Below, piece after piece: positions 7,318-51,571 of a DNA stretch of 64,000 nt (positions are counted from its first letter, which is position 1; each line of letters starts with the position of its first letter). Origin of the DNA: Roseimaritima multifibrata (GTDB taxonomy: Bacteria > Planctomycetota > Planctomycetia > Pirellulales > Pirellulaceae); NCBI RefSeq assembly GCF_007741495.1, contig NZ_CP036262.1, positions 372,001 to 436,000 of the forward strand, read 5' to 3'. Position numbers and translations under genes: made by a program. Under the pieces are notes generated by a model, which saw only the letters and a program-made list of their open reading frames with translations, ran no database searches and had not been told where the DNA came from.

Positions 7318-7823
7318 GGCGTTACGCGTTAGTTGAGATCAGGTAGGGGAAGCCGAGGGGCGAGCAAGCGGGTGGGGAAACTGGCCGGGGCGGTTGTCCG
7401 AGCGATGCTGCTGACGCATGCAAAGCCCCATTTGGGAGCGACTGTGACCCATTTTTGACGCAAGTGAACTAGCAGGAGATCCGTCATCCAGTCACCGCAG
7501 CGACAAGTGGTATCCTCGATAACTCGCGACAGGCTACGTCGAATCGCATAAGCGAGTGTTGTAATTGTGGGGGTGGTCCCGGGTTCGGAGGTGGGGAGTC
7601 CAGGAAGTGCCTTATTGTGACTTGCCACTCCACGGACTTGAATGCCAGGATAGTGCTTCCTGGGCAAAATGTCAAATTATGAAATGCCCAGTTAGCCACA
7701 AGGACATTTTTTCGATTCCGCCAGGTTTTTCAGTCCTGGCACGCTTGGCACGCTTGCTTTTAGTAAACTGTTACTCCCTGCCCCTGCGTATTCCTACCCT
7801 CCAGATCAATCGATCAAATCACC
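7318..7823. other. Divergent intergenic region, no gene seen
   Basis: About 500 bp separate the divergent operon at 7317 and the cytochrome/WD40 gene at 7824, so promoters for both should lie here. I see no credible small gene. A tandem tggcacgct/tggcacgct repeat near 7737-7757 was inspected as a sigma-54 site, but its spacing does not fit. Confidence 0.5.
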
Positions 7824-10800: not shown

Positions 10801-10955
10801 ACGGCGCCAAAGTCCGCAGTTATGATGCTTCGAAAGATTTTTTGTTTGCGATTGCAGTCACCCCGGACGGCAAGCAATTGATCGCTGGCGGCGAAAGTGG
10901 TGTGGTGCGGATATGGAATGTCGCCGATGGAAAACTGATTGCCGAATCAAAGTGA
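7824..10955 (+). CDS. Cytochrome-c-type / WD40 / coiled-coil fusion protein
   Basis: The 1043-residue protein has a signal sequence ending near AAGA (residue 46). A planctomycete cytochrome-c domain follows (DFATEIAPILKRSCVACHHKG, heme motif CVACH near residue 75, PLMPPED tail). Two blocks of WD40 repeats (about 170-480 and 740-1040; units ending in IWNAETG, LWKRTH, VWNLDDG) are separated by a long Ala/Lys/Glu-rich coiled coil (about 495-735). Each WD block could form part of a propeller. The pairing of a heme domain with propellers and a rod suggests a large periplasmic scaffold; no enzyme activity is evident. The annotated start is the first ATG of the frame and fits the leader length. Confidence 0.88.
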   Translation: MSVPLSCSCVRAREVFATGILWLLGGGKATTVWMVLVCSVTIAAGAEPVLTIAELERTTPVDFATEIAPILKRSCVACHHKGEAEGGLVLESHASLMKGGDSGPAVIAKDAKASLLLMRATGEEEPLMPPEDNDVGASPLTAEELGLWQLWIQQGAVGSGASETEVIKWQPIPESLRAVYALDVSPDGQQFAFARGNRLFVAGINTPTKHVLLADSELGDAGVADVDLIQSIAFSPDGLRLASGGFRTLRLWKRTHAPLSPKDVSWLKPAQLVAAHPDGSAVALVNAIGDVEVWDVAANDRRSVILGHSDPVIGMAWAGSTGNLVVADNAGRVTFHDAKDGRELATIKLNASLAELTTSSDGVHAAVRTDSGAVQLLRFVAAVDDAPAGIEVAQPSVGDLSDATAIALIAKPSLAVAVATESRGVLLVDAATNKVTRTLEVGSVVDALAVSADQTQLVTGGRDAAVVVWNLDDGKQLAANGSGVDDTLALGKATRDANRQKALVAKLTSKTKELQELLKKEDEALAVIVKIRDAATVANDANEEKRSAAAKLVTATEATIAKTTGEVTGAEKALAQARAKLEKASKDLESQQAAINKDAEGKAEKQAEKEEATAAEPTEAAKQIAETQAAVAQAKADIAAGEKAIASGKALLEKATKELETQRATLKKMEAEKAKSEAELVKQQRLTDAASVAQKRATDAIPEHQRVVDAETRRLARLDAKLALVNTDLKRPGRAVIGIAISPDATRIATVHQDGSSRVLRSSDGQPLSQIPPSNTLDASGAGGNARFNIALVGDKICRLAGTGTVQCWPLQEQWVLERTIGATNDREQIVDRVTAIDFRPDAMTVAVGSGEPSRSGTVKIFDVQTGQLVRDLGDLHTDSILGLAFSPDGRTLASSSADRTIGLTDVASGQTTRRLEGHSHHVLSVAWQDSGSVIASAGADQAVKIWNAETGETSRTVSGFAKEMTAIRFVEATDQLVAASGSGEVRLVNSTNGAKVRSYDASKDFLFAIAVTPDGKQLIAGGESGVVRIWNVADGKLIAESK

Positions 10956-11436
10956 GCGGTAACGAAAGACACCTATTCACCTTCTCGCATCGATTGCGCA
11001 CGTTGCGGTTTTAGATAGTTGGCAAGCGGAGGGAAATAGCTGCGTTTGACTCCGCTGCGCAAGACCATTTTGCGAACGTGGTGCAGATCGGCAACCAAAG
11101 TTTGGCTTCGTGACGATCTGCTGGAAGGGGCTTTGTCGTCTCAGATTCTGTTTGCAGCCTTAATCGCTGGTTCATTCGCGTGGCTTAGCGCTCGCGTATC
11201 TTCGCTTTACGCCATCGGTGGGGCTACGTTGAGTCTGTAGATGACCGTTTTAGCTTTTGGCTTTTGATTAGCCGATTTAGGTTAGTCGCTGGGGATCGGA
11301 AGCGATGGTGAATCGCCCGACGTAAAGCATTTGCCATTCAAAACCAGCAAGCGGCTCAGGACTTTTTTTCTCGCCCAATCACGTGGCTTGATTGGACGAA
11401 AAACAAGCAGCTGGCAATCAAACTCAGAGCGAATGG
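10956..11436. other. Gene-poor stretch
   Basis: About 480 bp between the convergent WD40 and hydroxylase genes. The short open frames here show no domain, signal or ribosome-binding support, and no strong terminator hairpin was found by eye. Confidence 0.4.
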
Positions 11437-12342
11437 TCAGTGATCGCCCAAAGATCTTTCGGGAGACACACCCCGTCTCGGCCGCGGAGCTGGGGTTCGA
11501 TAGCCAGGTGCTCGGTCTATTCGTATCGTCTTGCGTTCCGTAGCTTCGGATTCGGCCGCCAGCGTTTGGCGAACGCTGTCTTCAGAGACGGTGGTCGCTT
11601 GATCGTCCAGAAAAGTTCCCATCCAGCGATCCCAGACGTTGAAGAACGCTCCGAAGTTAACTCGCATGTTGGTGTGATGGTTGTCATGATGAGTGACGGT
11701 ATTGAAGCCTTTGAAAAACCGCCGTTGTGAGATCCACTTGGGTACCATCTCAAACCCAGTATGGCCTGCGACGTTAACGACTGTGTCGTAGCTGAGGAAT
11801 GCTAGTAGAACGAGCGGATGTAAAGGCAAAAACACGACAATCATGATAATGCCCAAGAATTGAGTGATCGCTTCTGCTGGCTGGAAAGCGTAGATTGCCC
11901 ACGGGCTGGGGCTGACAGATTTGTGGTGGCCTGCGTGGAAGTACTTAAACACCGGACGCCAATGCATGAAGCGATGGGTCCAATAGAAAAAGGTGTCGTG
12001 AATCACTAAGCATAAGAAAAAGCTAAGCGGTAAATACCAAAGCCCATACAGGGTGATATCACGATAGATGCTGGTCATGCCAGCTTTGTACATTTCAAAC
12101 AATCCAGTTCCCAGGATCGAAAAAATAGCAATTGTCTGCAGCGAGAGCTTAACTTCTCGACGAATGCCACGTTTTGTGGGTCGCCGCTCTTGGATGCGGC
12201 GTCGCTCCTTTTCAGGATCCGTGCGAACGAAGTAAGCGTAGTACGATTGTCCGCAGGGCAGCAGGTATCCAAACACCAAAATGAATAGAAAGATCGCGGC
12301 GAACTCTGTTGCGAGCGTTGCGATCAGGTTCGATGTGGACAT
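11437..12342 (-). CDS. Fatty acid hydroxylase / sterol desaturase family membrane enzyme
   Basis: The 301-residue protein has four or five hydrophobic segments and the three histidine boxes of the family: HDTFFYWTHRFMH (115-127), HAGHH (136-140) and HHDNHH (218-223). These bind a di-iron centre that inserts oxygen into, or desaturates, lipid-type substrates at the membrane. The substrate cannot be read from sequence; sterols, fatty acids and hopanoids are all used by relatives. The C-terminal 40 residues are charged and probably cytoplasmic. It is a single-gene unit whose neighbours are gene-poor. Confidence 0.9.
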   Translation of the reverse strand: MSTSNLIATLATEFAAIFLFILVFGYLLPCGQSYYAYFVRTDPEKERRRIQERRPTKRGIRREVKLSLQTIAIFSILGTGLFEMYKAGMTSIYRDITLYGLWYLPLSFFLCLVIHDTFFYWTHRFMHWRPVFKYFHAGHHKSVSPSPWAIYAFQPAEAITQFLGIIMIVVFLPLHPLVLLAFLSYDTVVNVAGHTGFEMVPKWISQRRFFKGFNTVTHHDNHHTNMRVNFGAFFNVWDRWMGTFLDDQATTVSEDSVRQTLAAESEATERKTIRIDRAPGYRTPAPRPRRGVSPERSLGDH

Positions 12343-13028
12343 GTTTTACCCCTCCAAAGTCATGCAAGCCGATACCACCGGCCAAATTCCTGCCAGCAAG
12401 ACGCTCGCAGCTGAGCTCGATTCAATGCGCAAAGGATGCCGCAAATGATGTGCCACTCAGTCGTTCGGCCGGTTCAGCAAACGAGAGAACGCTGATATCG
12501 CTGGAACAGGACGCGTCTCAATCATTGTTGAAAGATGGTCTCTCAACGAGCGGGCTCTGTACTCCGAACCTTACTAGTTTTTTCGGCTGCAAACGGTGGA
12601 GAGACCATCGCAAATGAAGTTAGTCTTTTAGAATTTCTGGGGTAAGTTTATGTTTCGGAGAGATGAAGGATCTTTCGCAACTTTCTGCGAGGTCACGCGT
12701 GAAAAAGGTTCTGTGCAGTCTTGGCCGTGGAGGTAGCCGAGTTGTGCGGTCTCATGCGCGCCCCATCGCTCAGCCAAATTGAACGTGCCGGCCCAAATTC
12801 AGAGCGCGCGTTGTATGAGAAAGAACGCGAAGAAGTTGATTTGTCGCAGGCTGATTACTGTTGTACTAGCCCGGTTGGGGGTCTCCTCATATCGCCCGTT
12901 AGCATTTGCTTTGACATAGAAATGGCAGAGCAGTTCAAAAGCATCTTTTGGTGTGATTGACAGTGCTGGTACCCGCTGGCAAATCAAAGGGACTCGCGTA
13001 AAAAAATATATTGCCGACTGTCGAGCGA
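12343..13028. other. Gene-poor stretch left of the first attC-like cassette
   Basis: Nearly 700 bp with only short, unsupported open frames. It forms the boundary between core genes and the first recombination-site-flanked gene at 13029-13427, and may hold cassette remnants too decayed to name. Confidence 0.35.
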
Positions 13029-13427
13029 CTAGAAGTTAGGACTGATTCGACCTAGCGGGAAGTTCATGAGCGTGACAATCGCTGTAAAGAGTAACCACCC
13101 GGGAAGAGTGACCAGTGCAAAAAAGAATCCGCTCACCAATCGTTCATGCAACATGAACGCACGAAACCAAAGTACGGCAGCGTAGAGACAAACCAGTGGC
13201 ATGGTGAAGTTTGACGCCGCCATTCCGAAATCTTCGACCTCGGTTGCACGTTCAGCGTAGATGCCAACGATGTCCGTTGCGAACATCGTCAGCGGCCAGG
13301 CGAATAGGGCAAGCAAGATGCATCGACCTGACGTGCGGGGCCAAAATATAGACCGGTTCAGAGTTGTCTGGTCGCCGGAACCTCGCTTAGCCGAAGCCGG
13401 TTCGTAAGGATTTGGCTGTTCGGTCAC
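13029..13427 (-). CDS. Small integral membrane protein with NPYEP N-terminus
   Basis: The 132-residue protein starts with GTG directly beside an attC-like site (13435). It opens with TEQPNPYEPAS, an N-terminal motif seen in many small planctomycete membrane proteins. Three or four hydrophobic segments follow (about 35-55, 70-95, 100-125). There is no recognisable family beyond that, and the function is unknown. Two other cassette genes here (24652-24918 and 29080-29631) share the NPY start, so this is probably a former cassette gene. Confidence 0.65.
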   Translation of the reverse strand: MTEQPNPYEPASAKRGSGDQTTLNRSIFWPRTSGRCILLALFAWPLTMFATDIVGIYAERATEVEDFGMAASNFTMPLVCLYAAVLWFRAFMLHERLVSGFFFALVTLPGWLLFTAIVTLMNFPLGRISPNF

Positions 13428-37830: not shown

Positions 37831-38975
37831 TTACTTTGTTCGGACGCTCCAGGTTGGAAAAGGGGCTGTGGGAAAGGTGCTTGCGCTGAGGGAAATGTGT
37901 TTGGAGATGGTTGAGGGGAGGCTTCGGTCGCGATGTGGCCGATCGATTCGCGTGGCGATTGTGGCTGTTGTTGTTTGCTTTTCAGGACGATGAGTGATTA
38001 GGGTACCCGCCTGGAATCGGGAGCGAATCGATTGCTGCAACCGCTCGTAAAAATCAGCTTCTTGGAATCGTTCGCGCTGTCTGGGTCTGAGCCAATTAAG
38101 TTCCTTGTCCCATTTTTCAAGCGGTGGGACGCTGAGTGTTAAATAGCCCTGCCTTGCTTCGGTAACCGTTGTCCCAGTGAAATAGATGGCTCGACCTTCT
38201 GCTGGCACGCGGATGGTTAGCTGGATAGTCGACGATGAGTCGGGGGATGTTTTTCCGAACAATTGCATCCTTCCGACGGGCTCTGCTGGCGGAGATGGCA
38301 CGTTTGGCAGATTTTGGGGATCACGACTTAATGCCGGGGAGGAAGTGGCCATGTGCGATGGTTCGGATGGGCCATCTCCCGTTGCTGCGTGAAGGCGATC
38401 GATGGGGCTTGGCATCTGAGACGGGTCGGCCGGCTTTGCGACATGCACGTATATGGTGGTCGTTTCTAGGTGAACGTGCCCGAGAACCTTTTGTATTCGC
38501 CGAATGTCACAGCCCGCTTCAAAGCTATGAGTCGCAAAGCTGTGGCGAAGCGAATGGGGAGTTGCAGGTTTGTCGATTTTGGCAATCCGCATCGTTGTCT
38601 GCATGATTCTTTGGACGGTCCGTGTCGAGAGAAACCGTCCTTTGGCGGCCCCTGCGAATATGTAGGACTCTGCAGTTCCGTGTGCCCGCATCGATCGCAA
38701 TAGTTCTCGGTAGCTCTGCGGTAGCGTGACTAGCCGGTCCGCTCGACCCTTCCCCTGCCAGGTCATGATGATGTTGCGATCAAAATCGATGTCTCGAAAT
38801 CGTACTCTGACGACCTCGCTGACTCGCATGCCCGTTGCATACATTAATCCCAGCACCAGTTTGTCTCGGATGGTTGAGGCTGCCTGAAGCAGTCGAGCGA
38901 CTTCCCGAGTACTTAATACCACCGGTCGACGCTTAGGCTTGCGAGGTGTCGCTAAACCGAGTGTCACATCCCGGT
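37831..38975 (-). pseudogene. IntI/Xer-like tyrosine recombinase, N-terminus lost
   Basis: The catalytic domain is intact: Arg76 in TGMRVSEVV, His166 and Arg169 in ATPHSLRHSFATHSF, His192 in LGHVHLETT and Tyr201 in IYVHVAK (numbering from Met at 39051). The PATPHSLRHSFATHSFEAGCDIRRIQ block is close to IntI, but the roughly 45-residue IntI patch before it is missing. Homology to recombinases begins at FCYRDVTLG, so the core-binding N-terminal domain is gone. A roughly 190-residue C-terminal extension of unknown function follows the Tyr. It points towards the cassette array. Confidence 0.75.
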
Positions 38976-39370
38976 AGCAGAATTTGTCGAAAAACGTTCG
39001 GATCGACATCACGAGCCATCGTTTCATGGACCGCTTCGCGAAGAGCAACAATCAGACGTTCGTCGCCATTGATCGCCCACGCAAGCGAAACGCTTTTAGG
39101 AACCGAAAAGGTCAGATCCATTCCGGGGCGGCGATCCTTTCGGCTTCGCTGCGTAAGCTGGCTGCCGTCGATCGGATGTTTGCCTTGAAGAAGATCACTG
39201 AACTGCTGTTTGGTTACTTCAGTTCCACGACCAAGACCGAGTATTTCAGCACCATGACCATGCCAGTGGCCGTTCACTTCTTGCCCCAAGTAGTAGTCAC
39301 CCTGTGTCAGTACTTGGTCAAAGTATTGACGCGTAGCGACGATGTTTTTTCCTTGGGTTGCAATGAGCAT
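38933..39370 (-). pseudogene. TrwC/MobF relaxase N-terminal fragment
   Basis: From Met 39370: ATRQYFDQVLTQGDYYLGQEVNGHWHGHGAEILGLG, then GMDLTFSVPKSVSLAWAINGDERLIVALREAVHETMARDV. This is the start of a TrwC-type conjugative relaxase with its Tyr pair. It stops before the three-His metal site, the last residues (RQILLPGCDTRF) being recombinase DNA read in another frame. So it is a remnant of a conjugative element joined to the recombinase near 38985. Confidence 0.8.
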
Positions 39371-39831
39371 GTGGAACGATATGGAGCACCTCATGAAGGG
39401 TCAAATGAAGAAATGTTTTTTGGATAGGCTTGTCCCCTAAGCAGTGCTTTGGACTTTAGAAGCGTGACACACATGACCCGCATTCGCAACGGTTCATCGC
39501 TCCGATATCCACAGCCTTATTGACGCTCCAAAATCGCGGACCGATTGGAAAATGAATCGTTGGTGGAAGGTTGGCACGTCAAGATACATACAGAACAGGC
39601 CTGTCTTTTTGGGAGCCGGGTCCTGCCATCTTGGTACGGCATCCTCTAAACTGATTGGCTGCCTTTGGCTTCCAGAATTCGATTGAGATTTCGCGTCCGA
39701 TGCGTTAAACCTGAAGCGATGGCAATGAACTCTCAGGGACTGGATCGGATGAAAGCCAAAAGACAACTACGAACTGATCGAGTTTTGGAAGGAATCTCGG
39801 TTGTCGGGCAACCGCTGGGGGAGTTGCACAC
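39371..39831. other. Intergenic region, island interior
   Basis: About 460 bp with no supported gene; it precedes the DUF1016 gene, which has a ggggag ribosome-binding site. Confidence 0.4.
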
Positions 39832-40983
39832 ATGAACCGCGATGAACTTAACTTGTACGGTGATTTGCTCGCGGAGATCAAGCAGCGTGTTCGGCGAGGG
39901 CAGCAACGAGCCGTCTTGTCGGTCAACGCGACCTTGATCCTGACCTATTGGGATATTGGTCGCATGATCTCCGAGCGTCAGAACGACCAGGGGTGGGGAA
40001 GCAAGGTCATCCCTCGGCTGGCGGTCGATCTAAAGAACGAATTACCGGAGGAGAAGGGGTTTTCGGAGCGGAACATTGGGCGAATGATCGCTTTTTTCCG
40101 TGCTTATCCAATTTTGCCACCGTCCGTGGCAAAATTTCCATCGGTGCCCCCAGCAGTGCAGCAAACCCCGGAAATTGGGGAACTGCCAAATTTGCCACCG
40201 TCCGTGGCAAATTCTGATGTGAGCTCTTTCGACACACTCTGGGCGACGCTCCTGCAGATTTCCTGGAGCCACAATGTCATCCTCATTCAAAAGGTAAAAG
40301 ACCAGAGCACACGGCTTTGGTACGCCAGCCAAATCATTGAGCACGGCTGGTCGCGAGACACACTCGCCTCGCAGATCAAATCGGAGGTACACACGCGGCA
40401 CGGGAAGGCGATCACGAATTTCGACGGCACACTTCCAGAAGCCCATGCCGGAATTGCGACGGATCTCCTGAAAGATCCCTTCGTTTTCGATTTCTTGACT
40501 TTGGAAGAGCCGTTCCACGAGCGTGAGCTGGAAACCGGCTTGCTGACGCATATCGAGAAATTTCTGCTTGAACTTGGACGCGGCTTTGCATTCGTCGGCC
40601 GGCAATACGAAATGACCGTCGGTGACAGCGATTTCTATATTGACCTACTGTTCTATCACCTCAAGCTGCGTTGTTTTGTCGTGGTCGACTTAAAGAAGGG
40701 CCAGTTCAAGCCCGAGCACGCAGGCAAGATGAACTTCTACTGTTCGGCAGTCGACTCCGAGCTACGGCACGAATCGGACGCACAAACGATCGGACTGATT
40801 CTCTGTCAGACAAAGAATAGTATCGTTGCCGAATATGCGTTAAGAGGAATCGAAAAACCAATCGGTGTCGCAGACTATGAGCTGACCACGGCACTTCCCG
40901 AAACAATGGTGTCAAGTCTGCCAAGCATTGAAGACATCGAAGCAGAGTTGTCCACCGATCTTCCAGAGGCTGATGCCGAATAG
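39832..40983 (+). CDS. YhcG-type DUF1016 PD-(D/E)xK nuclease
   Basis: The 383-residue protein has the N-terminal DUF1016 helical domain (LILTYWDIGRMISERQNDQGWGSKVIPRLAVDLKNELPEEKGFSERNIGRMIAFFRAY). The C-terminal nuclease domain has DSDFYIDLLFYHLKLRCFVVVDLKKGQFKPEHAGKMNFY with Asp and DLK as metal ligands. Relatives (YhcG, RpnB-like) are widespread in defence islands and mobile elements. Between the domains a Pro-rich linker (LPPSVAKFPSVPP...LPPSVAN) is encoded by two palindromic repeats. It starts the island's defence-type block. Confidence 0.92.
   Translation: MNRDELNLYGDLLAEIKQRVRRGQQRAVLSVNATLILTYWDIGRMISERQNDQGWGSKVIPRLAVDLKNELPEEKGFSERNIGRMIAFFRAYPILPPSVAKFPSVPPAVQQTPEIGELPNLPPSVANSDVSSFDTLWATLLQISWSHNVILIQKVKDQSTRLWYASQIIEHGWSRDTLASQIKSEVHTRHGKAITNFDGTLPEAHAGIATDLLKDPFVFDFLTLEEPFHERELETGLLTHIEKFLLELGRGFAFVGRQYEMTVGDSDFYIDLLFYHLKLRCFVVVDLKKGQFKPEHAGKMNFYCSAVDSELRHESDAQTIGLILCQTKNSIVAEYALRGIEKPIGVADYELTTALPETMVSSLPSIEDIEAELSTDLPEADAE
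40109..40213. repeat. Two palindromic inserts inside the DUF1016 gene
   Basis: The palindromes at 40110-40136 and 40189-40213 share the core TTTGCCAC-cgtcc-GTGGCAAA (stems of 11 and 10 bp). Both are in frame and encode L-P-P-S-V-A. Between them a ccccggaaattgggg element forms a weaker third stem. Confidence 0.8.
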
Positions 40984-41403
40984 AAGTTACGGGGCGGCGA
41001 TCAGGCAGTCGGCCCAGGTCGCATACAGCAAAACACGAATGATGGATTACGACGATGCTACGGCGTCGGCCACCGGTGCATGCAAACTCACTATAGAAAC
41101 ACTCATCGGTGGCGTTGCATGAGCTCAAAGAACGGCGATAATTCACGTTATTGGACTACGACAAGAACTTCCCATTGGGTTCGAAAGAAACTCTCTCTGG
41201 CTCAGAGCGACACGCTATTCTTCAATCTTGATCCCGCCACCAAATCTGTGCCCAGAACGCTTCCGAAGGTACACTGTTCATTGATCAGAGAGTGCGACGT
41301 CTACTTGCACCCCCGTTTATCGATCAAAACAAAGCTGATGTAAGTATTGACGTGACGCTGAAACAGTATCTTTCGTCAATACTATCGATGAGTCTTCGAC
41401 GAG
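40984..41403. other. Gap before the large nuclease/TPR gene
   Basis: About 420 bp; the short open frames are unsupported. It separates two plus-strand genes and probably contains a promoter for the second. Confidence 0.35.
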
Positions 41404-43962
41404 TTGCCTGGGAATAAACGACGAATGCCACAAGACAGACGAGAGCCTATCCTCCCCAAGCCAAGCGAGCAAATGCGGGCGAATCGCCCATACCTTTTTT
41501 CTGATTCTCAACGTTTGTCGGCTCCACGACTGGAACGGTCGTTGCTTGAATATCATCTCGAAACCTTGGTGAATCGAAAAGAAGAGTACCTGTTTGAGGA
41601 TTTCTGTCGACGCATCGCAGAAGCTGAACTGTGCCCAAACCTAAAGCCACAGGCGGGGCCCTTAGGCGGCGGCGACTCGAAGACCGACTCGTCGACTTAC
41701 CCAGTTTCAACGACGCTACTTGAGCGTTGCTATTGGGGTACACCTGCAGCGCCAGTGACGGAACGCTGGGCCTTTGCATTCAGTTGCCAGAAGACCTGGA
41801 CCAGTAAAGTCCGAAGCGACTGTAAGAAAATCGCCGAACTGGATACCAAGTTCTCCGTTGTCTATTTCATCACCAGTCAGTTTGCCCGAGACAAGACCCG
41901 CGCAAGATTGGAAGGAGAACTTTCAAAGACGCACGAGTTCGAAGTTCATATCCTTGACCGCGAATGGCTTTGTACACGTGTCTTGACGTTCAACCGAGAG
42001 CACATCGCAATAGAAACGCTCAGAATTTCGGTGCCCGTAGCACCGGAGCTCAAACGTGGTCCGAAGGATACCGAACGTCAGCTGGAGCTCGACGAAGTGC
42101 TTAATAAGCTTCGTGAGCCACTAGCCAATTACGCATCTGACGATGGAATCGCAAGCGCTTACATGCAAGCTGGCTTTCTCTCTCGCGAACTTGAACTGCC
42201 AAGACATGAAACGACGGGTTTCTTTCAGCGTGCTCGGTCAATCGCCAAGAAATCACAAAACACGTCACTTATAGTCCACTGCGCCTATCACCACGCGTGG
42301 ACTGACAATTGGTGGTTCGACGACGTATCCACCGCCATCGAAGTCTACGACGAGATCGAGCGTTTTCTCGGTTCCGCACCTGATGCGCACGCCGTTGAAC
42401 AATTCTGCAACTTGCTTTCCATGTTATGGTGCTCCGTCGGTTGCGGTGAATTCGATCGCGACGAATTACGTTTGCGGGAGCGTGATGCGGCCGCACGTCA
42501 TAGGCTAAATGAGCTGGTAAACGATCATCCCGACGAGGCAGTCCGGCTACAAGCTGAAACAATGCTCGCATTTGGGGGATTGTCGCCTTGGCAATGCGAT
42601 GACTCCTTTGATCTTGATGAGATTCTGCGAAAGCTCACCTCATGTTTTGAACGTTCTCAAACGATCGTTTCCTATCCGTTAACGCGATTCACTGACACGG
42701 TGATAGGTCTTTCTGAATACTTAATTGAGAGTCCAGAATTCGATGCAATTTTTGACTTGATTCAGAAACTAACGTCAGAGCGTGATGGAGAAATTACAGA
42801 AGCAAGGTTGCTAATTCGTAAGGGAGAGGCTCTTCAAAAAGCGGGGCGGCTTCGCGAAGCGGCGTCCGCATACCAACAGGCAAGATACAAAGCGGCGAAG
42901 GAAGAAGGTCTTGAGACAAGTGTAAAAGCAGCCGATCTAGCTTCCACTGTGTTCATCTCACTTGGCCTACCCAATGCATCGCGTCAGGAAGCGCTCTTTG
43001 GAGCATATCACGCCTGCAAGTGGACGGGCGACTGCCACCAATCCTCATGGTATGGATATCGCACTGCCCGAATGCTCGCTTGGACAGACCTGAGCCAAGG
43101 GCGTTTGGCATCATTCATAAGATGGATGCAGCTGGCGACGAACTGCTTCTGCGAACTCTATGATGCAGACATCGAGCTTCAACAGTTTGCTGGTGTCTAC
43201 CAAGAAATTGAAAAGGCGTTTTGCAATCGTCTCTACACGCTGAACAGCGACCAGGTTAAGAGACTTGTACCGTATGCCAGCCAGCTTCAGGATATGCAGT
43301 TGCCCATGTCTCGATTCACGGTTCTATACTTAGCGGGGCTCGAAAACGAGATGGCAGAGGAATTTACAAGGAAGTTTGAGGAAGATGTTGAATGGATGCG
43401 AGCATTCTTCGCGAAGTGGAAATCTTCCGTGCGCAAAGGGTTCCCTGAAACTCTACTGCATCAATTCGGGACGAAAGTCCAAGCGACAGGTAACGTCCGG
43501 AACTCGGTGATTTGCCTTGAATGCGAAGCTGATTTCGAGACCATCATATATTCCGATGACCTTTTGGGTACGCTTGAGAGCCTTGCGTCTCTTTGCGTGT
43601 TTGATGAATGCGAAGCTACCGATCAGCTTATTCGGGTCGAGGTCTTCATGGACGACCAGGCTGTCTCACCACCTCAGATTCTCTTTTGCGAGTCGACGGA
43701 ATATACACAGGTACGAGTCAGAGTTAGTCCGAATTTTTGCAACTGGATACCTGATCACATCGAAGAGTTCCGCTCGCATCTAGTGAACGTCTCAATTGCG
43801 GTGCTCTGTTGTGCCTTTGGTACGAACCACGATGAGATTGCGGGCATGATGCACGACGTGAGCGAGACTGATGCTTTTGATCGGGCTCTGGATTGTGTTG
43901 GTTCAGAGGGGGCAGTTGAGGCAATGATCGGTCGAGATTGCTACTTGCTTCAAGCAACGTAA
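41404..43962 (+). CDS. PD-(D/E)xK nuclease plus helical/TPR-repeat protein (predicted defence)
   Basis: The 852-residue protein has an N-terminal nuclease-like domain: YLFEDFCRRIAEAELCPNLKPQAGPLGGGDSKTDSS, then RWAFAFSCQKTWTSK, with Glu65, Asp95 and Gln129-Lys130 in the restriction-endonuclease order. From about residue 230 it is alpha-helical; around 450-520 it shows TPR-like pairs (RKGEALQKAGRLREAASAYQQARYKAAKEEG). A nuclease coupled to a repeat sensor is common in single-gene antiphage proteins. The exact family is not recognised. It is convergent with the SIR2 operon and may act independently. Confidence 0.7.
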   Translation: MPGNKRRMPQDRREPILPKPSEQMRANRPYLFSDSQRLSAPRLERSLLEYHLETLVNRKEEYLFEDFCRRIAEAELCPNLKPQAGPLGGGDSKTDSSTYPVSTTLLERCYWGTPAAPVTERWAFAFSCQKTWTSKVRSDCKKIAELDTKFSVVYFITSQFARDKTRARLEGELSKTHEFEVHILDREWLCTRVLTFNREHIAIETLRISVPVAPELKRGPKDTERQLELDEVLNKLREPLANYASDDGIASAYMQAGFLSRELELPRHETTGFFQRARSIAKKSQNTSLIVHCAYHHAWTDNWWFDDVSTAIEVYDEIERFLGSAPDAHAVEQFCNLLSMLWCSVGCGEFDRDELRLRERDAAARHRLNELVNDHPDEAVRLQAETMLAFGGLSPWQCDDSFDLDEILRKLTSCFERSQTIVSYPLTRFTDTVIGLSEYLIESPEFDAIFDLIQKLTSERDGEITEARLLIRKGEALQKAGRLREAASAYQQARYKAAKEEGLETSVKAADLASTVFISLGLPNASRQEALFGAYHACKWTGDCHQSSWYGYRTARMLAWTDLSQGRLASFIRWMQLATNCFCELYDADIELQQFAGVYQEIEKAFCNRLYTLNSDQVKRLVPYASQLQDMQLPMSRFTVLYLAGLENEMAEEFTRKFEEDVEWMRAFFAKWKSSVRKGFPETLLHQFGTKVQATGNVRNSVICLECEADFETIIYSDDLLGTLESLASLCVFDECEATDQLIRVEVFMDDQAVSPPQILFCESTEYTQVRVRVSPNFCNWIPDHIEEFRSHLVNVSIAVLCCAFGTNHDEIAGMMHDVSETDAFDRALDCVGSEGAVEAMIGRDCYLLQAT

Positions 43963-44239: not shown

Positions 44240-47101
44240 TCAGAATTTGTCCCCCAGCAACTTTCCAAACTCAAGAAAGCCTGAACGACCAAGACGGTCA
44301 ATCAAAGACTCTGCGATATCACGTGCTTTGGAGGACTCTGAGTTCAGGGAAGTGCGAAGAATGTCGGTTGCCGCCGCGCTCCATTCTGCGACACGCCAAT
44401 TCTGGTCATCAGACTCTATAAATCTTTGAAGGAGCTGAATTGACGATAAAGGATCACGTTCAGCCTGCTGAGCTAAGCGATTGACGACATCACGCCCTGC
44501 AATCACGGCGGGTACGGAAAAGACTGCTTCTTTCAGCTTTTGGAGTGCCCACACTTCGTCAAACGATCCAAACGCAAACCAATCAGCAAAGACAAATTCT
44601 TCTGGATTCGTCAAGAAGTCATTGCAACCGTGCATGGGCCAGTAAAAGTCCCAAAGACTTTGGAATCGGTTGACAACCTCTTGCGGAAGCTCTTTCTCAC
44701 CACGAAGGCTGTTACCTATAAACTGAAGAAGTTGACGTCGCACGCACGGACGGGCGTTGGTTAGCAATATTCGAATCAGGCTTCCATTCACCTCCAAACT
44801 CAAATAGCCACGACCATAGTAGATCGCAATGTGCTGCGAGAGAGAACGCATCGGAGACTGTGATCTTCGTTCAGTCTTAGCCACTTCTGACGTTTGGCTA
44901 CATGCGTATTCGTATTGTGATCGAAACAGATCCAAGTACACGCGATGAGGCTGCGTCCAGGTCAAGAATGCGTTCCAAGCCGCCCAGCCGAACGCTTCTT
45001 CAGGGTCTTCTTCAACGTCTTCAAGTCGAAAAATCAGGTCACGATGGTTTTCAAGCCAACGTTCATCAAAATGGTAGATTGTTGAAAGGTGTGAGCCGAT
45101 GATGGCAAGTCCAACCCAACTTCGGTTTTTCCCACACGCCTGACTTTCCAACACTTGTCGAAACTCGATCAAGTCCAGAGCCTCAAACGACTGATTCGTC
45201 ACTTCCGAAGCCAGCGATCTAATCCAGCCGGCATATGCGAAGGCAGTTTCTACTGCTTTACCACGTGCTGAATTGATTGCGAGCGTCGTAAAGTCATGAT
45301 CGCGAGGATCATCAGGTTCATTGTCCTGAAGAACCCAAGAATTTGGAGTTGCTTCGCACATTGTTTCAATGCACCCCCAAATCGCGAGCCGACCATCAAG
45401 GAGTGATTGGGAGGGCTCCTTCCTTTCCGTTTGGGCATCTAACAATCCGCGAATCAAGTCGAGTGCCCGCTCCTGCTCGTAGACGTAAGAATCGCCGCCC
45501 GCTGACCGCTTTCCATCAATCAGCCAAACGCAGAGTTCCAGTGTTGGCTCAATAGAGATCGCTTTCCCCTCAGTTACTGCGTTTCTCATCGCTGAGAGAA
45601 ATGCTGAAACGAATGGAGCCGGCTTGTCGATCAACTCATTTGCGAAACGCGAATAGCTGGAGGCATTATCTTTAACATACTGCTCGAATCTGTCCGCCAA
45701 ACCTTGCACGCTTGGACCAAATGAACTCGTCGATTCACCATCCCACTCGCAAACAGCCTTCAAAGCGTCGGCAAAATCTAGTTGTCGCAACGCGTCCAAT
45801 TCTATTGGGCTTTCGTAGCCGTATCGCAATGGACCGCTGTACGAGTGGAATTCGGCCAACTTGCCGTCTTCAAACTCTTCTAGTAGCTTGTTGTATTCAT
45901 CGAGTAACTGGTCGCTCAGATGCCTTCTAATGAGATGCAATCTGTGAAACCGCCAGTAACGGGCGTAGTTGGTTAAATGTTCATCGCTCTCGAAAAACGG
46001 ATATTCTCGATCAACGTCAGGCCGACCTTGATCGACGAACTCGATCCAGCTCTTGCGATCAGACTCGGGAAGTTCACCAAAACGATCCTGTACCAGTCGA
46101 GCGTATTCGTGTTTTAACGCAAAGTCATCGAATGAAGCTCGGTCGAGCAACACCGCGCGCGCAAGTTCTGGAACCCGATCCGCGAAAACGTTAATAAGAT
46201 GAACGCGAAACCTTCGGAAAACATCGAGTTCTTGCTCGGTTAATATCGCGAGAACTCGGGAGACGGGAATCAGGTCTTCACCAATGGCCCTCTCGCAAAC
46301 CTCACGCAATACGCCAACCACAAATCCAGCTAAATCGTAGTCCGAATTTTGTTCGTGCTCCTCGATTGCTGGTCGCCAGATGTACGAATAATCGTCTGCA
46401 ATCGAGGTCGAGTCTTCCCCGCGATTAACGCGTCCCAGAATGCCTACCCAGTCTCTCAGGCAAATAATCATGCGCTCGGGACTAGCGGAAACCAGCGATT
46501 CCGAAACTTGTTGCAAACCCTCGCGGTACCAATAGTCTTTGGGGTCATGCATGCTTCGCTCAGAGGCCGGTTCGCGCGGCAGGAACAAGGCTTCCGCAAG
46601 CTCGAACGCCTCCTCCATATGTCCCGAGTCACAGAGCTTGACGCAGAATTCGCACGCATCCTTAAAGTGAACCCAGACTGACAGGTTCTCCGCCGCATAG
46701 CGAATCGCAGGTACCAAGCAAACAGCGTCATCAATCGGCAGTTTGTTGGCCGCGTCGATGATGTCGCCGTTGACCGACGTGTTTGCTGTCCGAACGCTCG
46801 CCAAAATACGAGCCACGTCGGCGGGTGCAAGTGACGCCATCCTAACAAGATACTTCGATGCATCCCAACGCGGAAATCTTGAAGCATCCTCAGAGATATC
46901 TGGGGTAGGCGGTGATTCAAACTCAGCCGCCGATTCAAGGACGCTGATCCAATCTGCACTATCGAGCAGGCTCCAAAACTCGCGTTTGATAGGCTCGTCC
47001 GCTAGCAGTGGTTTGACCTCTTTCCACTTCTCTTCGGTCGACGTGCTTCCACCGAGAATTGCTTTGAGATTGGCAAGTTCAGAGAAAAAGGACGTGGTCA
47101 T
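44240..47101 (-). CDS. Large helical protein with DUF4020-like C-terminus (SIR2 partner)
   Basis: The 953-residue protein is almost entirely helical. Its N-terminal region (FPRWDASKYLVRMASLAPADVARILASVRTANTSVNGDIIDAANKLP) resembles HEAT-like repeats. The last 160 residues (FAFGSFDEVWALQKLKEAVFS...NWRVAEWSAAATDILRTSLNSESSKARDIAESLIDRLGRSGFLEFGKLL) resemble DUF4020, which I recall from Dsr1-type defence sirtuins. Its start overlaps the SIR2 stop by 4 bp. In this reading it senses infection and controls the SIR2 effector. Confidence 0.7.
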   Translation of the reverse strand: MTTSFFSELANLKAILGGSTSTEEKWKEVKPLLADEPIKREFWSLLDSADWISVLESAAEFESPPTPDISEDASRFPRWDASKYLVRMASLAPADVARILASVRTANTSVNGDIIDAANKLPIDDAVCLVPAIRYAAENLSVWVHFKDACEFCVKLCDSGHMEEAFELAEALFLPREPASERSMHDPKDYWYREGLQQVSESLVSASPERMIICLRDWVGILGRVNRGEDSTSIADDYSYIWRPAIEEHEQNSDYDLAGFVVGVLREVCERAIGEDLIPVSRVLAILTEQELDVFRRFRVHLINVFADRVPELARAVLLDRASFDDFALKHEYARLVQDRFGELPESDRKSWIEFVDQGRPDVDREYPFFESDEHLTNYARYWRFHRLHLIRRHLSDQLLDEYNKLLEEFEDGKLAEFHSYSGPLRYGYESPIELDALRQLDFADALKAVCEWDGESTSSFGPSVQGLADRFEQYVKDNASSYSRFANELIDKPAPFVSAFLSAMRNAVTEGKAISIEPTLELCVWLIDGKRSAGGDSYVYEQERALDLIRGLLDAQTERKEPSQSLLDGRLAIWGCIETMCEATPNSWVLQDNEPDDPRDHDFTTLAINSARGKAVETAFAYAGWIRSLASEVTNQSFEALDLIEFRQVLESQACGKNRSWVGLAIIGSHLSTIYHFDERWLENHRDLIFRLEDVEEDPEEAFGWAAWNAFLTWTQPHRVYLDLFRSQYEYACSQTSEVAKTERRSQSPMRSLSQHIAIYYGRGYLSLEVNGSLIRILLTNARPCVRRQLLQFIGNSLRGEKELPQEVVNRFQSLWDFYWPMHGCNDFLTNPEEFVFADWFAFGSFDEVWALQKLKEAVFSVPAVIAGRDVVNRLAQQAERDPLSSIQLLQRFIESDDQNWRVAEWSAAATDILRTSLNSESSKARDIAESLIDRLGRSGFLEFGKLLGDKF

Positions 47102-47997: not shown

Positions 47998-48940
47998 CCG
48001 GCTACCTACACCGAATGGCTAGGATCATGTCTCTCATCATACGCCCCACGTCGCCTCGCGGTGAAAAACCTTCCGAATTCCATGAATTCAACGCAAAAAC
48101 TTCGTACGGTCGTCAAATACTCGTTTTCACTTTGACTCCGTAGTTTATCGCTCGCAGCTTCTCCGGCAAAGACGACTGATTGCTTTCGTTAACGAGACAG
48201 GTAAATCGCAAGTTGTAACGATGAGTACTTTGTTCAGGGCAACGAAGGATTTCGGAGGATCAAACAAACTGAGCTGACTTCGGTTTCACCCCGCGAGCAT
48301 TTCTTCCGTGAACTGGTAGCAGCTTGGACCAATCAGGTCAGCGACGAAAGTCAATGAAGGCGATGCCAGGAACAAACGATCGACGCCAATCTTGTTGATT
48401 TCGCTAACACCGCGCGGATTCGTATTCTCGTTTGACTGACTGATGGCACAAGGTCGTTCTTCGGATTGTTCAATCCGTGGTCGGCAGCATTCATTCATCC
48501 CCTAGCGTGCTCCGGTGGCCGACACCGGAGCCAGAAATTGGGGACAGGGACGGGAAACCTGAGGCATCGTTTGATCTCGACTCACGCCGGGTTTCTCTAA
48601 TCCACGCTTGCGGTCGTGTGAGAATGTTTCTTATGGAAAGGGTGAGCTGTTTGGGCGGAGCAAGGTTCTGTGATCGTACGCACTTACCTATTCGAACATG
48701 CTCCCATTCGTTTGGCAAATGCTCAGTTGCTTTGGTAGGTGCGATTGAAGCACCTGCGACTTCTGCTTTGCCATGTCGGCTCGTGAGCCGACACAGTTCA
48801 CCTGCTCAGCCTGCGTCTTTTGCAAACTTCTCGGAAACGGAATAAGGCAGGCATGTCGAAATCGACATAAACGCATACGAAGCACGCCCCCGATCCGACC
48901 GTGTCGCAATGTGCCCCCACTGCCGGTCCGGGAAATTCAC
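47998..48940. other. Gene-poor region upstream of the SIR2 operon
   Basis: Nearly 1 kb. Several overlapping frames on both strands lack support. A 9-bp hairpin with 2-base loop (TGTCGGCTC-GAGCCGACA, about 48774-48793) is the only structured element. The SIR2 promoter should lie just above 47997. Confidence 0.45.
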
Positions 48941-49410: not shown

Positions 49411-49653
49411 TTACCCACGGTCGTGCCTGCGAACATCGCCTTCAATCAAGTTTCTCAGGAGGTCGGCGATTTGAATGCCTCGCTTGGCGCAGCTGATTTT
49501 TAGCTCGGTGTGCAGTTCGGGATCGATATCGATGGTTAACCGCTTTGGTTTGGTTCTCGGTTTAACATCAATCGACGATTCTCGCATTTCCACCCAATTG
49601 TCGACCTCGGGTTTCGGCTTTGGGCGTGCTGACATGGTGATTCGTTTGCTCAT
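49411..49653 (-). CDS. Ribbon-helix-helix partition-type protein
   Basis: The 80-residue protein has a basic N-terminus and a C-terminal ribbon-helix-helix (RLTIDIDPELHTELKISCAKRGIQIADLLRNLIEGD), as in ParG/Omega-like or CopG-like regulators. It directly follows parA with a 4-bp overlap (ATGA). It should bind a centromere-like site and repress the operon while ParA supplies ATPase activity. Confidence 0.8.
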   Translation of the reverse strand: MSKRITMSARPKPKPEVDNWVEMRESSIDVKPRTKPKRLTIDIDPELHTELKISCAKRGIQIADLLRNLIEGDVRRHDRG

Positions 49654-50270
49654 TTGATCCTCCTCAGTTCATTGACGAATTTTTTGATTTCCTTAGCGGC
49701 TTTCGATCTCTGCTGATCGAGTACGGTTGCTCCGTTCGCTGCCGTTTCGGCGAATGCGACACGTTGCCCGATGTCACTTTTCAGGATCGGCACTTCTAGT
49801 TCGGCCAGTGCTTCCCTGACGTCTCTTCCGATTGCCGTGTTGGCGATCTTGCGATTGAGCATGAGGCAGCACCTAATGTTTGGTTTGAACACCTGCGCCT
49901 CGCGGACAAGATCTACGGTTTCCGCAGCTGCCCAAACGTCCATTGGCGACGGTTGCAGCGGGATGACGACAACGTCCGCCGCCAGGATTATCGATCGCGC
50001 TAACTCGGTGACTCGTGGTGGGCCGTCAATGATTACGTCATCGTAGTCCTGGGCCAAGCTTTCGACTTCTCGGTGGATTGTCGCTTTGGCCATCCCTACG
50101 ACGGTGAAGTCGGATTTCTCTCGGTAGTTCGACCACGCCAAAGAGCTGCCCTGTGGGTCTGCATCGACTAGCAAGACACGTCGCCCGCGACTGGATAGTT
50201 CAGTCGCGGTATGAATGGAGAGCGTCGTCTTGCCGACACCGCCTTTTTGGTTCAAGAATGCATAAATCAT
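49650..50270 (-). CDS. parA: ParA-type partition ATPase
   Basis: From Met 50270 the product of 206 residues has the deviant Walker A KGGVGKTT, switch DADPQGSSLAWSN, the Walker B-like VIIDGPP and the VVVIPLQPSPMDVWAA segment. It is a short, ParF-like ParA without an N-terminal DNA-binding domain, as in plasmid-type systems. The downstream ribbon-helix-helix gene completes the pair. It suggests that the island once had, or still has, a plasmid-like replicating stage. Confidence 0.88.
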   Translation of the reverse strand: MIYAFLNQKGGVGKTTLSIHTATELSSRGRRVLLVDADPQGSSLAWSNYREKSDFTVVGMAKATIHREVESLAQDYDDVIIDGPPRVTELARSIILAADVVVIPLQPSPMDVWAAAETVDLVREAQVFKPNIRCCLMLNRKIANTAIGRDVREALAELEVPILKSDIGQRVAFAETAANGATVLDQQRSKAAKEIKKFVNELRRIK

Positions 50271-50381
50271 GTTCGTCGTATTTCTGTGCATCCGATTGCA
50301 CGTTGTTACGACTTCACGCTACAGGACTTTTTACCCGAGCGCAATCGTTTTCTTCGTCCATTGATCCAAGATCCGAAACGC

Positions 50382-51391
50382 TCACCCGGCCTCGTCTCGT
50401 TTTTTGATCGCGTTGCGTGCTTGGGCTCGTAGGAAGTCGGGGTTCTTGGTTAGGTGACTGTAGACACGGGAGACCATCGCAGTGTCTTTATGTCCCATTA
50501 GATGTGCGAGCGAGATTAGGTCGACACCGCCGGTCGTTAGGGCGTTGGTGGCATAGCTATGTCTCGCCCCGTATGCGATGACTCGGAGCCCTACTTTTTC
50601 GCTGATCCGGCGTAGGCGGCATTTGATTGCATCTTTCGTCCACGGGTTGTTGCGGGCGTTTAAAAACAAGGTTCCGGTGGGGCGGTCCGTTGCCAAACGA
50701 TCGAGGATCTCTTTGGCTTCCGGCGGTAGGAAAATGACTCGGGGGGCCGTTTCGCCTTTGGATTCATCGGCGGGGAACAGGACGAGATCGTCGTGGAGGT
50801 GTTTCTTTTCGACGATACGGGCCTCTTTGGGCCGGCAGCCGGTCAAGTAAAGAAAATCGAGAAGCTCAACGAGCGGTCCTGTGGCGGCGTCTTTAATTTG
50901 TTGCCATTGGTCACTTGTGTAAACCACGTCTCGGCGTTTCCGCCGTGGCTTGCGAACCTTCGGTAGAGGGGTGTACTTCAGATAGCCCCTTCGACGGCCC
51001 AGTTGAGCATCCGCTGAACGATCGCGATGGCGTCGTTGGTAGCGGTGTCAGATCAGTGGGGATTGTTGCCGGTCCACTTGGTGATGTGGTGCTTCTTAAG
51101 CTGGCCTACCTTCATTCGTTTGCTGACCGACGCGATAAAGCTCTTCAGGTACAGCAAATTGTTGTTGTAGGTCCCCTGTTTCCGATTGTTCTGGACCCAA
51201 TCCAGATATTTCTGGGATAGATCGTAGAGGGTTGTGATTTCAGCACTGACCGAAGTCTGGTCGCACATCAATTCGTGGAATTTTTTATCGGCGGCTTCTT
51301 TTTCTTTGCCGAGCCTGATCTGACGTCCGTCGATGGAGCAGTACCAGGTTTTGGTCTGCTTTCGGTAGAACGGTTTGCTTGGCCGTGCCAT
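50382..51391 (-). pseudogene. Tyrosine integrase of the tRNA-Val island, disrupted
   Basis: The N-terminal part (51053-51391; ARPSKPFYRKQTKTWYCSIDGRQIRLG...) is followed by an in-frame TGA near 51053. The frame continues (SDTATNDAIAIVQRMLNWAVEG) and then shifts near 50970 into KYTPLPKVRKPRRKRRDVVYTSDQW. The C-terminal part (50382-50927) has TGCRPKEAR, ARHSYATNAL, GHKDTAMVSRVYSHL: the Arg, His/Arg, His and Tyr residues. One stop plus one frameshift make it non-functional unless corrected. It lies 100 bp from the 3' end of tRNA-Val, the usual integrase position. Confidence 0.85.
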
Positions 51392-51494: not shown

Positions 51495-51497
51495 GAG

Positions 51498-51571
51498 TGG
51501 GCGATACAGAACTCGAATCTGTGACCTCCACGATGTCAACGTGGCGCTCTAACCAACTGAGCTAATCGCCC
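51498..51571 (-). tRNA. tRNA-Val (anticodon GAC)
   Basis: A 74-nt cloverleaf: acceptor GGGCGAT/ATCGCCC, D arm GCTC...GAGC, anticodon stem CCACG with loop TTGACAT (anticodon GAC), variable AGGTC, T arm ACAGA-TTCGAGT-TCTGT and discriminator A. The integrase remnant adjoins its 3' end, so it is the probable island attachment site. Confidence 0.96.

Follow-up and report, generated by a model that had tools for sequence, protein, structure and literature searches.

A modular, unnamed family of nuclease–TPR proteins in a defense setting, with a short member in Roseimaritima multifibrata

The STAND ATPase is thought to be central to signaling by the Avs immune receptors. Avs1 to Avs4 carry nuclease effectors, and Avs4 senses the phage portal or terminase, according to PMC12931631. 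For DSR2, a C-terminal sensor is described that binds the tail tube protein and thereby activates SIR2, and it follows from the three domains described there that DSR2 works without an NTPase domain (PMC10981675). A related logic of conflict systems that use STAND NTPases and TPRs has also been set out (PMC7159879). Here we examine a stretch of 64,000 nucleotides from Roseimaritima multifibrata (positions 372,001 to 436,000 of NZ_CP036262.1, called the window throughout), and within it a gene whose product joins a nuclease to a TPR-like solenoid. The protein belongs to a real, unnamed, and modular family in a strong defense setting, and we put at roughly 0.68 the probability that it is a stand-alone anti-phage (or anti-mobile-element) protein, combining an effector with a sensor and acting independently of an ATPase. 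The computed features that bear on this reading are the order of the domains, the fold of the nuclease, the lack of a Walker A motif, selection in the relatives, the defense neighborhood, and the exchange of the nuclease.

The reading frame is a real one. A preliminary description, made from the letters of the DNA, had reported an open reading frame (ORF) of 852 residues, and all 852 codons are indeed open. The listed start is a TTG with an in-frame stop just upstream; judging from the upstream bases, an ATG at 41425, which would give a protein of 845 amino acids, seems at least as likely a start. The frame is not a chance one, because homologs with open frames occur across many phyla, and because ten close pairs of relatives (a set without the window gene, which has no sufficiently close relative) show an overall ratio of nonsynonymous to synonymous substitution rates (dN/dS) of 0.08–0.25, the nuclease part giving the lowest value in nine of the ten. 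The gene is present as a single copy in its own 7.2-Mb single-contig genome (E ≤ 0.001).

The preliminary description could put no family name to the protein, and the libraries that we searched with the window protein and some of its relatives (Pfam 2025, NCBIfam June 2026, PADLOC 2023 [v2.0.0], and PHROGs v4) do not supply one. The window protein has no match at E ≤ 1 in NCBIfam, none in PHROGs at 0.01, and none among PDB sequences at E 1; the whole protein matches 0 PADLOC families at E ≤ 1, newer systems being outside that release. Pfam gives only sub-threshold matches, the best being TPR_2 at 14 bits against a cut-off of 27. The nuclease domains of 77 members likewise returned only scattered PADLOC matches, with a best E of 0.0069. 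The remote-homology search that had been proposed as a check therefore brought up no match to a known non-defense family. A full-text literature search yielded no description that we recognized as this family; it did not extend to the supplementary tables of DefensePredictor (PMC13092281), with which overlap is possible, and which reports 42 validated Escherichia coli systems, many with PD-(D/E)XK domains, with TPR named in figure legends.

AlphaFold2 models built with 77 family sequences were obtained for the window protein (mean predicted local distance difference test [pLDDT] 83.7, predicted template modeling score [pTM] 0.77) and for L027, a full-length relative of 1,121 amino acids (pLDDT 89.0, pTM 0.85). 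This structure prediction, also proposed as a check, supports a PD-(D/E)xK nuclease like the N-terminal domain of Avs4, followed by a TPR-like solenoid and then by an alpha/beta domain, and no STAND ATPase. By VIA-align, the nuclease of L027 (residues 52–219) matches residues 2–176 of Avs4 (8dgf_B, from the structure of Avs4 bound to the phage portal) with a Z of 10.9 and a root-mean-square deviation (rmsd) of 3.1 over 141 aligned residues at 17% identity, and that of the window protein (42–207) matches the restriction enzyme AspBHI (4oc8_A) with a Z of 10.2 and an rmsd of 4.2 over 143 aligned residues at 8% identity. These matches back the PD-(D/E)xK assignment of the preliminary description, and with the conservation of E65, D91, D95, and K135 they provide the core fold, acidic residues, and lysine of that superfamily. 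Residues 220–675 of the window model are almost entirely helix and align with TPR superhelices, and LGN is among the TPR proteins matched by the solenoid of both models; the label TPR-like is a structural one, the Pfam gathering score not being reached. The long helical repeat region that had been described thus stands, but the alpha/beta domain at 690–842 had been missed. The window protein ends after that domain, while most relatives go on with a further conserved domain; the L027 model has a second alpha/beta domain at about 918–1080, and the C-terminal domain of the long members gave no consistent Pfam match. A Walker A motif ([AG]xxxxGK[ST]) occurs in 0 of 77 members, and the middle of the protein is all helix in both models. 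Foldseek with the whole models found no match at E ≤ 0.001, its rows being mostly TPR-like solenoids for the window model against the PDB and weak matches for L027 against viral proteins.

How does this architecture compare with the systems introduced above? With Avs4 (AVAST type 4) the family shares a defense setting, an N-terminal nuclease that matches by fold only (in L027), and a helical repeat region behind it, present here as a TPR-like solenoid, a candidate counterpart of the C-terminal repeat sensor with which AVAST proteins recognize the terminase or portal; Avs4 reportedly has helical repeats of its own. It differs in having no sequence-level match to Avs4 and no central STAND NTPase. 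The STAND ATPase was looked for and is absent, which excludes the family from Avs. Like DSR2 and Dsr1, it consists of one protein with an N-terminal enzyme, a sensor behind it, and no NTPase, but a nuclease takes the place of the SIR2 NADase, and the window protein has no Dsr match at E ≤ 1 in PADLOC or NCBIfam and no SIR2 domain match. Four proteins bear a Cap4-type nuclease (PF14130) on a body related to that of the family, whereas the window protein has another type of nuclease, with no PF14130 or SAVED match; nor is there a CD-NTase of the kind associated with CBASS among the five neighbors scanned (DUF1016, Dsr1-like, SIR2, recombinase, and ParA). AspBHI and other Mrr-like PD-(D/E)xK restriction enzymes share the fold of the catalytic domain, but at the low identity given above, and the window protein has a TPR body and no other Pfam domain that we could find.

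Within the nuclease, all 77 members share D91, D95, S127, K135, and D139. Position 65 is E in 75 of them, position 130 is K in 47, and position 129 is K in 73, a figure inflated by the use of W[AG]FA[FI]SAK as one of the two patterns in the scan that collected the species-genome relatives. The residues listed in the preliminary description (E65, GGGD at 88–91, D95, and Q129-K130) were all located as stated, but its choice of the catalytic lysine within Q129-K130 is probably wrong or incomplete. K135, which sits in the helix following the strand that bears S127, appears to be the best candidate for the active-site lysine, because it is conserved in the 77 members and in six proteins of a second, diverged family of the same layout (type B), and K129 is not. 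The six aligned type-B proteins keep G89–D91, D95, K135, and D139 (6/6) but not K129, which is also absent in the window protein, L028, L055, L085, and the E. coli proteins. K129 and K130 may assist or swap with K135.

Type B, whose relatives are found on plasmids, also bears on the modularity of these proteins. Profile comparison indicates that the nuclease is exchanged on a common body in this related branch, because four proteins with the type-B body carry a Cap4-type nuclease at the N-terminus. A 789-position profile was built for the type-B body from six proteins; two others that had been fetched, L141 (split in two annotated genes) and L142 (unannotated), did not enter it. This profile matches L136, L137, L138, and L148 with E values from 3e-128 to 5e-66, in L148 over positions 7–595 only, and the family nuclease profile finds no match in the N-termini of these four at E ≤ 0.01. 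Pfam Cap4_nuclease recognizes L138 above its cut-off (E 4.9e-8) and L137 just below it (2.2e-5). L136 has no Pfam nuclease match, but it matches a local Cap4-type profile built partly from L136 itself; L148 matches the same profile at 5e-68, though outside its source set. A protein built as sensor plus effector would be expected to show just this kind of effector swapping on a single body. A further Cap4-type body, sought with the body of L138 in the phylum of genome G395, was found in 1 of 345 genomes. On the contig of L027, from an Acidobacteria metagenome-assembled genome (MAG), a type-B gene (6852–9875, 1,007 amino acids) lies upstream of a type-A gene (9923–13285) in tandem on the same strand, 48 bases apart.

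The preliminary description proposed a single-gene defense system on the strength of its setting, and the neighborhoods of the relatives speak for both parts of that proposal. At E ≤ 1e-15, 152 PADLOC models found a match among the 126 genes scanned around 27 relatives with long contigs, whereas 140 control genes from the same contigs yielded 11 (AbiEi, AbiEii, PrimPol, and mad2, the last matched in both sets). The test covered 126 of 153 near genes and 140 of 162 control genes, clipped at 600 amino acids (49,398 vs 49,462 residues), and the nearest control region lies 36 kb from the relative (L030), the others at least 41 kb away. The 25 near-gene models shown include AriA, type I and type IIG restriction–modification, DrmA, HerA, SIR2, and PDC-S28. 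A gene with a defense or toxin–antitoxin name or pairing lies within 10 kb in 6 of the 12 plasmid loci read from 14 plasmid records (H4 and H6, which resemble H3 and H5, were left unread); beyond those in Table 1, L014 has a pairing of DUF1837 with a helicase, which we take to be Hachiman. Upstream of L020, a draft-genome relative discussed below for its length, stands a gene that matches the NCBIfam entry "anti-phage-associated DUF499" at E 9e-51, below the curated cut-off (172.8 of 1200 bits). The family is therefore found near defense genes, where an absence from such surroundings would have told against the proposal. As to the single gene, no constant partner was found among 1,306 neighboring ORFs at 94 loci (an upstream neighbor being present at 87 and a downstream one at 86): no cluster of neighbors occurs in more than 8 of the 94, and a fixed position is seen for a few clusters, and only within small sets of relatives, which supports a system of one gene. 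The recurrent clusters look by eye like recombinases, transposases, integrases, and ParB. Near plasmid members, an ATP-binding/AAA protein beside an S8 family peptidase recurs (L143 812–4308, L016 5914–9375, L011 5173–8871), possibly another defense pair.

The family is widespread. A tblastn search of 72,556 plasmid records turned up relatives in 14 (identity 22.6–39.1%), all annotated "hypothetical protein", and an alignment-based scan of a species-genome collection gave 259 pattern matches, at least 200 of which encode relatives; a single-protein pattern search of the species genomes found no relatives, its peptide patterns probably not being the conserved ones. The best 80 of 200 relative-encoding stretches were kept, and the phyla among these include Cyanobacteriota, Bacillota, Bacteroidota, Pseudomonadota, Acidobacteriota, Chloroflexota, and Verrucomicrobiota; one relative (L072) comes from an archaeal MAG. 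Viral contigs hold five relatives, and one of six virus records tested encodes an S78-family phage protease along with its relative. In the fetched set of 85 relatives (L024–L108), 76 have 1,051–1,121 residues, and the other nine are longer (L060, 1,139), cut by a contig end, interrupted, or short. Alignment A2 comprises the window protein and 76 relatives; it omits L025 (a near copy, removed by hand), L034, L042, L058, and L082 (which run off the contig), L081 and L086 (internal stop), and L101 and L107 (short), and retains L103 and L104, whose frames stop slightly short of the end of the tblastn match. A3 additionally omits L070 and L104, and A5 holds 41 of 75 C-terminal pieces. Phyla are interspersed in the gene tree, a pattern that horizontal spread would produce, and the family is rare and patchy in the host's own phylum (5 of 392 genomes) and class (3 of 397), the host genome being counted in both.

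A nucleotide search with a Pantoea member led to genes in E. coli, with a short match in 24 of 5,426 genomes. The E. coli member (1,083 amino acids; WP_039268304.1, strain 6409; "hypothetical protein" in RefSeq) is full-length, matches the family profile at E ~4e-300, and has 24% identity to the window protein over 851 columns. With its gene as the query, 26 of 5,426 complete genomes match, 23 of them covering no less than 80% of its length; a single annotated gene is present in 17 of those 23, four have it annotated as two pieces, and in two it is split by an insertion sequence (IS). At the two E. coli loci read (L150 and L151, 8258–11509), the member follows prophage tail-fiber genes and an integrase remnant, with core genes (L150) or an integrase gene (L151) downstream, so that this prophage edge is a possible cargo site.

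Such placements would also suit a nuclease borne by plasmids or prophages for competition or stabilization, as in addiction or plasmid interference, and not a phage sensor: there are plasmid copies, some near partition or toxin–antitoxin genes, and the E. coli copies sit at a prophage edge. We consider this distinctly unlikely, since no antidote-like gene recurs beside the family gene and diverse defense models are strongly enriched nearby, though defense genes ride such elements too. The 80 fetched species-genome relatives, being assembly contigs with the replicon mostly unstated, have no bearing on the matter. A nuclease for DNA repair or nucleic-acid maintenance on a TPR scaffold would fit the many housekeeping roles that TPR scaffolds and PD-(D/E)xK nucleases are generally known to have, but this we regard as highly improbable for a family that is so rare and patchy in its phylum, class, and E. 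coli (23 of 5,426), that lies in defense neighborhoods, and whose effector is exchanged with Cap4-type nucleases.

A different question is whether the window copy is itself a working member. It has 852 amino acids against 1,051–1,121 in 76 of 85 relatives, its match to the family profile ends at position 834 of 1096, and a search for the C-terminal domain, positive in two control genomes with long members (G392 and G692), did not find it in the whole genome of the window, in that of L020 (G192, draft, 91% complete), or in G470. Q129 and S97 are rare in the family, and other short members owe their length to insertions: L012 has a C-terminal remnant 773 bases past its break with an IS5 gene between, L070 has one 5 kb past its break, and L101 has a transposase-like ORF (of IS3 type by eye) 5 bases past its end. 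The window copy could thus be a decaying or inactive member that has lost its C-terminal domain, yet we find this rather unlikely. L020 (870 amino acids), which comes from another taxonomic family of the same phylum and shares 35% identity with the window protein across 634 residues, stops close to the same point (842), and its draft genome lacks the domain too; the two proteins cluster with a support of 100, although the program warns of long branches meeting. For L148, the Cap4-type body protein, the match likewise stops at profile position 834. With L020 and L148 both stopping at nearly the same place on the profile, the short form has the look of a natural one. Moreover, the 852 codons are free of stops, E65, D91, D95, and K135 are retained, and K129 is also absent from full-length E. 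coli proteins and from all six type-B proteins. As a first choice for the window gene, "broken pseudogene" was set aside on account of the second short form with nearly the same ending.

For the sensor–effector protein that we favor, we infer the defense role, the trigger, DNA as the substrate, and oligomerization. In the proposed mechanism, the TPR solenoid and the alpha/beta domain would keep the N-terminal PD-(D/E)xK nuclease inactive, until a phage component binds the body and switches it on, probably in an oligomer and without ATP; the activated nuclease would then degrade DNA, ending the infection or the cell. This would amount to allosteric switching of the DSR2 type applied to an Avs4-type nuclease, Avs4 and DSR2 being the nearest precedents, and direct activation by a phage protein, as described for DSR2 (PMC10981675), may be a model for the switching of the nuclease here. 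Several points weigh against such a reading. No sequence or profile search reaches Avs4 or any other PDB nuclease, the match being one of fold only; an AVAST row appears among the top 50 of L027 only, and an AspBHI row among the top 50 of the window model only. The active-site loops of the window model are poorly predicted (pLDDT 54–68 at residues 81–120), and the geometry of the catalytic residues in it is tentative. The window protein has Q129 and S97, vs K in 73 and E in 76 of 77 members, and its nuclease is possibly weakened or inactive. The PADLOC counts are of models and not of genes, one gene being able to match many, and defense islands gather other cargo as well.

If the family is defensive, it would be an ATPase-free counterpart of the Avs immune receptors, spread over many phyla and unnamed by the libraries searched. 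We would go further only tentatively, at somewhat less than even odds, and suggest an undescribed, widespread class of bacterial immune receptors in which a TPR and alpha/beta body directly detects phage and fires an exchangeable Avs4- or Cap4-like nuclease without a STAND ATPase, with the C-terminal domain as an optional specificity module that is dispensable in short forms like the window protein. A defensive role of the family would show that allostery alone is enough to control these same nuclease effectors. The full-length E. coli member makes the family directly testable in a standard laboratory host.

Table 1. Features of the window gene, its product, its neighbors, and plasmid loci of relatives (positions are those of the window)
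Feature	Position	Strand	Evidence or remark
Nuclease–TPR protein gene	41404..43962	+	852 codons as listed; homologs found
PD-(D/E)xK-fold nuclease domain, residues ~61–195	41584..41988	+	Fold match, conserved residues
TPR-like helical solenoid, residues ~220–675; proposed sensor/regulatory body	42061..43428	+	Predicted structure; no Walker A
Alpha/beta domain, residues ~690–842; family-invariant E725, R827	43471..43929	+	Predicted structure, alignment
Nuclease-domain residues			E65, G88–D91, D95, S127, Q129-K130, invariant K135, D139
DUF1016/YhcG PDDEXK nuclease	39832..40983	+	PADLOC candidate PDC-S02; Pfam YhcG_C E 2.9e-65
953-aa protein matching C-terminal part of Dsr1	44240..47101	-	PADLOC E 2.1e-29
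SIR2 protein, 299 aa	47098..47997	-	SIR2_2 E 6.2e-14; PADLOC ThsA E 1.3e-11, Dsr1 E 4.5e-7
Plasmid-locus neighbors			L007 AbiEii, L012 HipA, L015 RelE/ParE, L016 SAVED, L018 Shedu

The DUF1016 and SIR2 neighbors named in the preliminary description are both recognized by Pfam (Table 1). The SIR2 gene, however, is the second gene downstream of the window gene, 3.1 kb away, and, going by the profile matches, apparently supplies the N-terminal half of a divided Dsr1-like pair, the other half being the 953-aa protein, whose gene directly follows the window gene and overlaps the SIR2 gene by 4 bases. Both halves of this putative pair are far below the NCBIfam Dsr1 cut-off. The four locus genes have a GC content of 50.6–52.7%, vs 54.5% for the window.

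Around the locus, a short ORF at 38933–39394 looks by eye like the start of a TrwC-type relaxase, and a ParA gene (49650–50291), a short integrase-like ORF (50382–50927, by eye), and a tRNA-Val (51497–51571) follow on the other side. No attachment-site copy of the 3' end of the tRNA-Val was found in the window; the four features are possibly the remains of an integrated mobile element. An array of attC-like repeats spans positions 13425–37481, with 13 copies of a 51-nt family (D4), some reaching ~140 nt, and small ORFs between them, and it is ended by a tyrosine recombinase at 37831–39051 on the minus strand (Phage_integrase E 8.5e-40). The array and the recombinase, a putative integron integrase, look like a chromosomal integron cassette array, the likeness to attC being judged by eye. 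A 27-nt inverted repeat (41057–41083 and 48505–48531; 85% complementary) flanks the nuclease–TPR gene and the split Dsr1 pair, and it shares GGCCGACGCCG with the attC-like repeats, a word that occurs (with at most one mismatch) 11 times in the window vs 2.9 expected.

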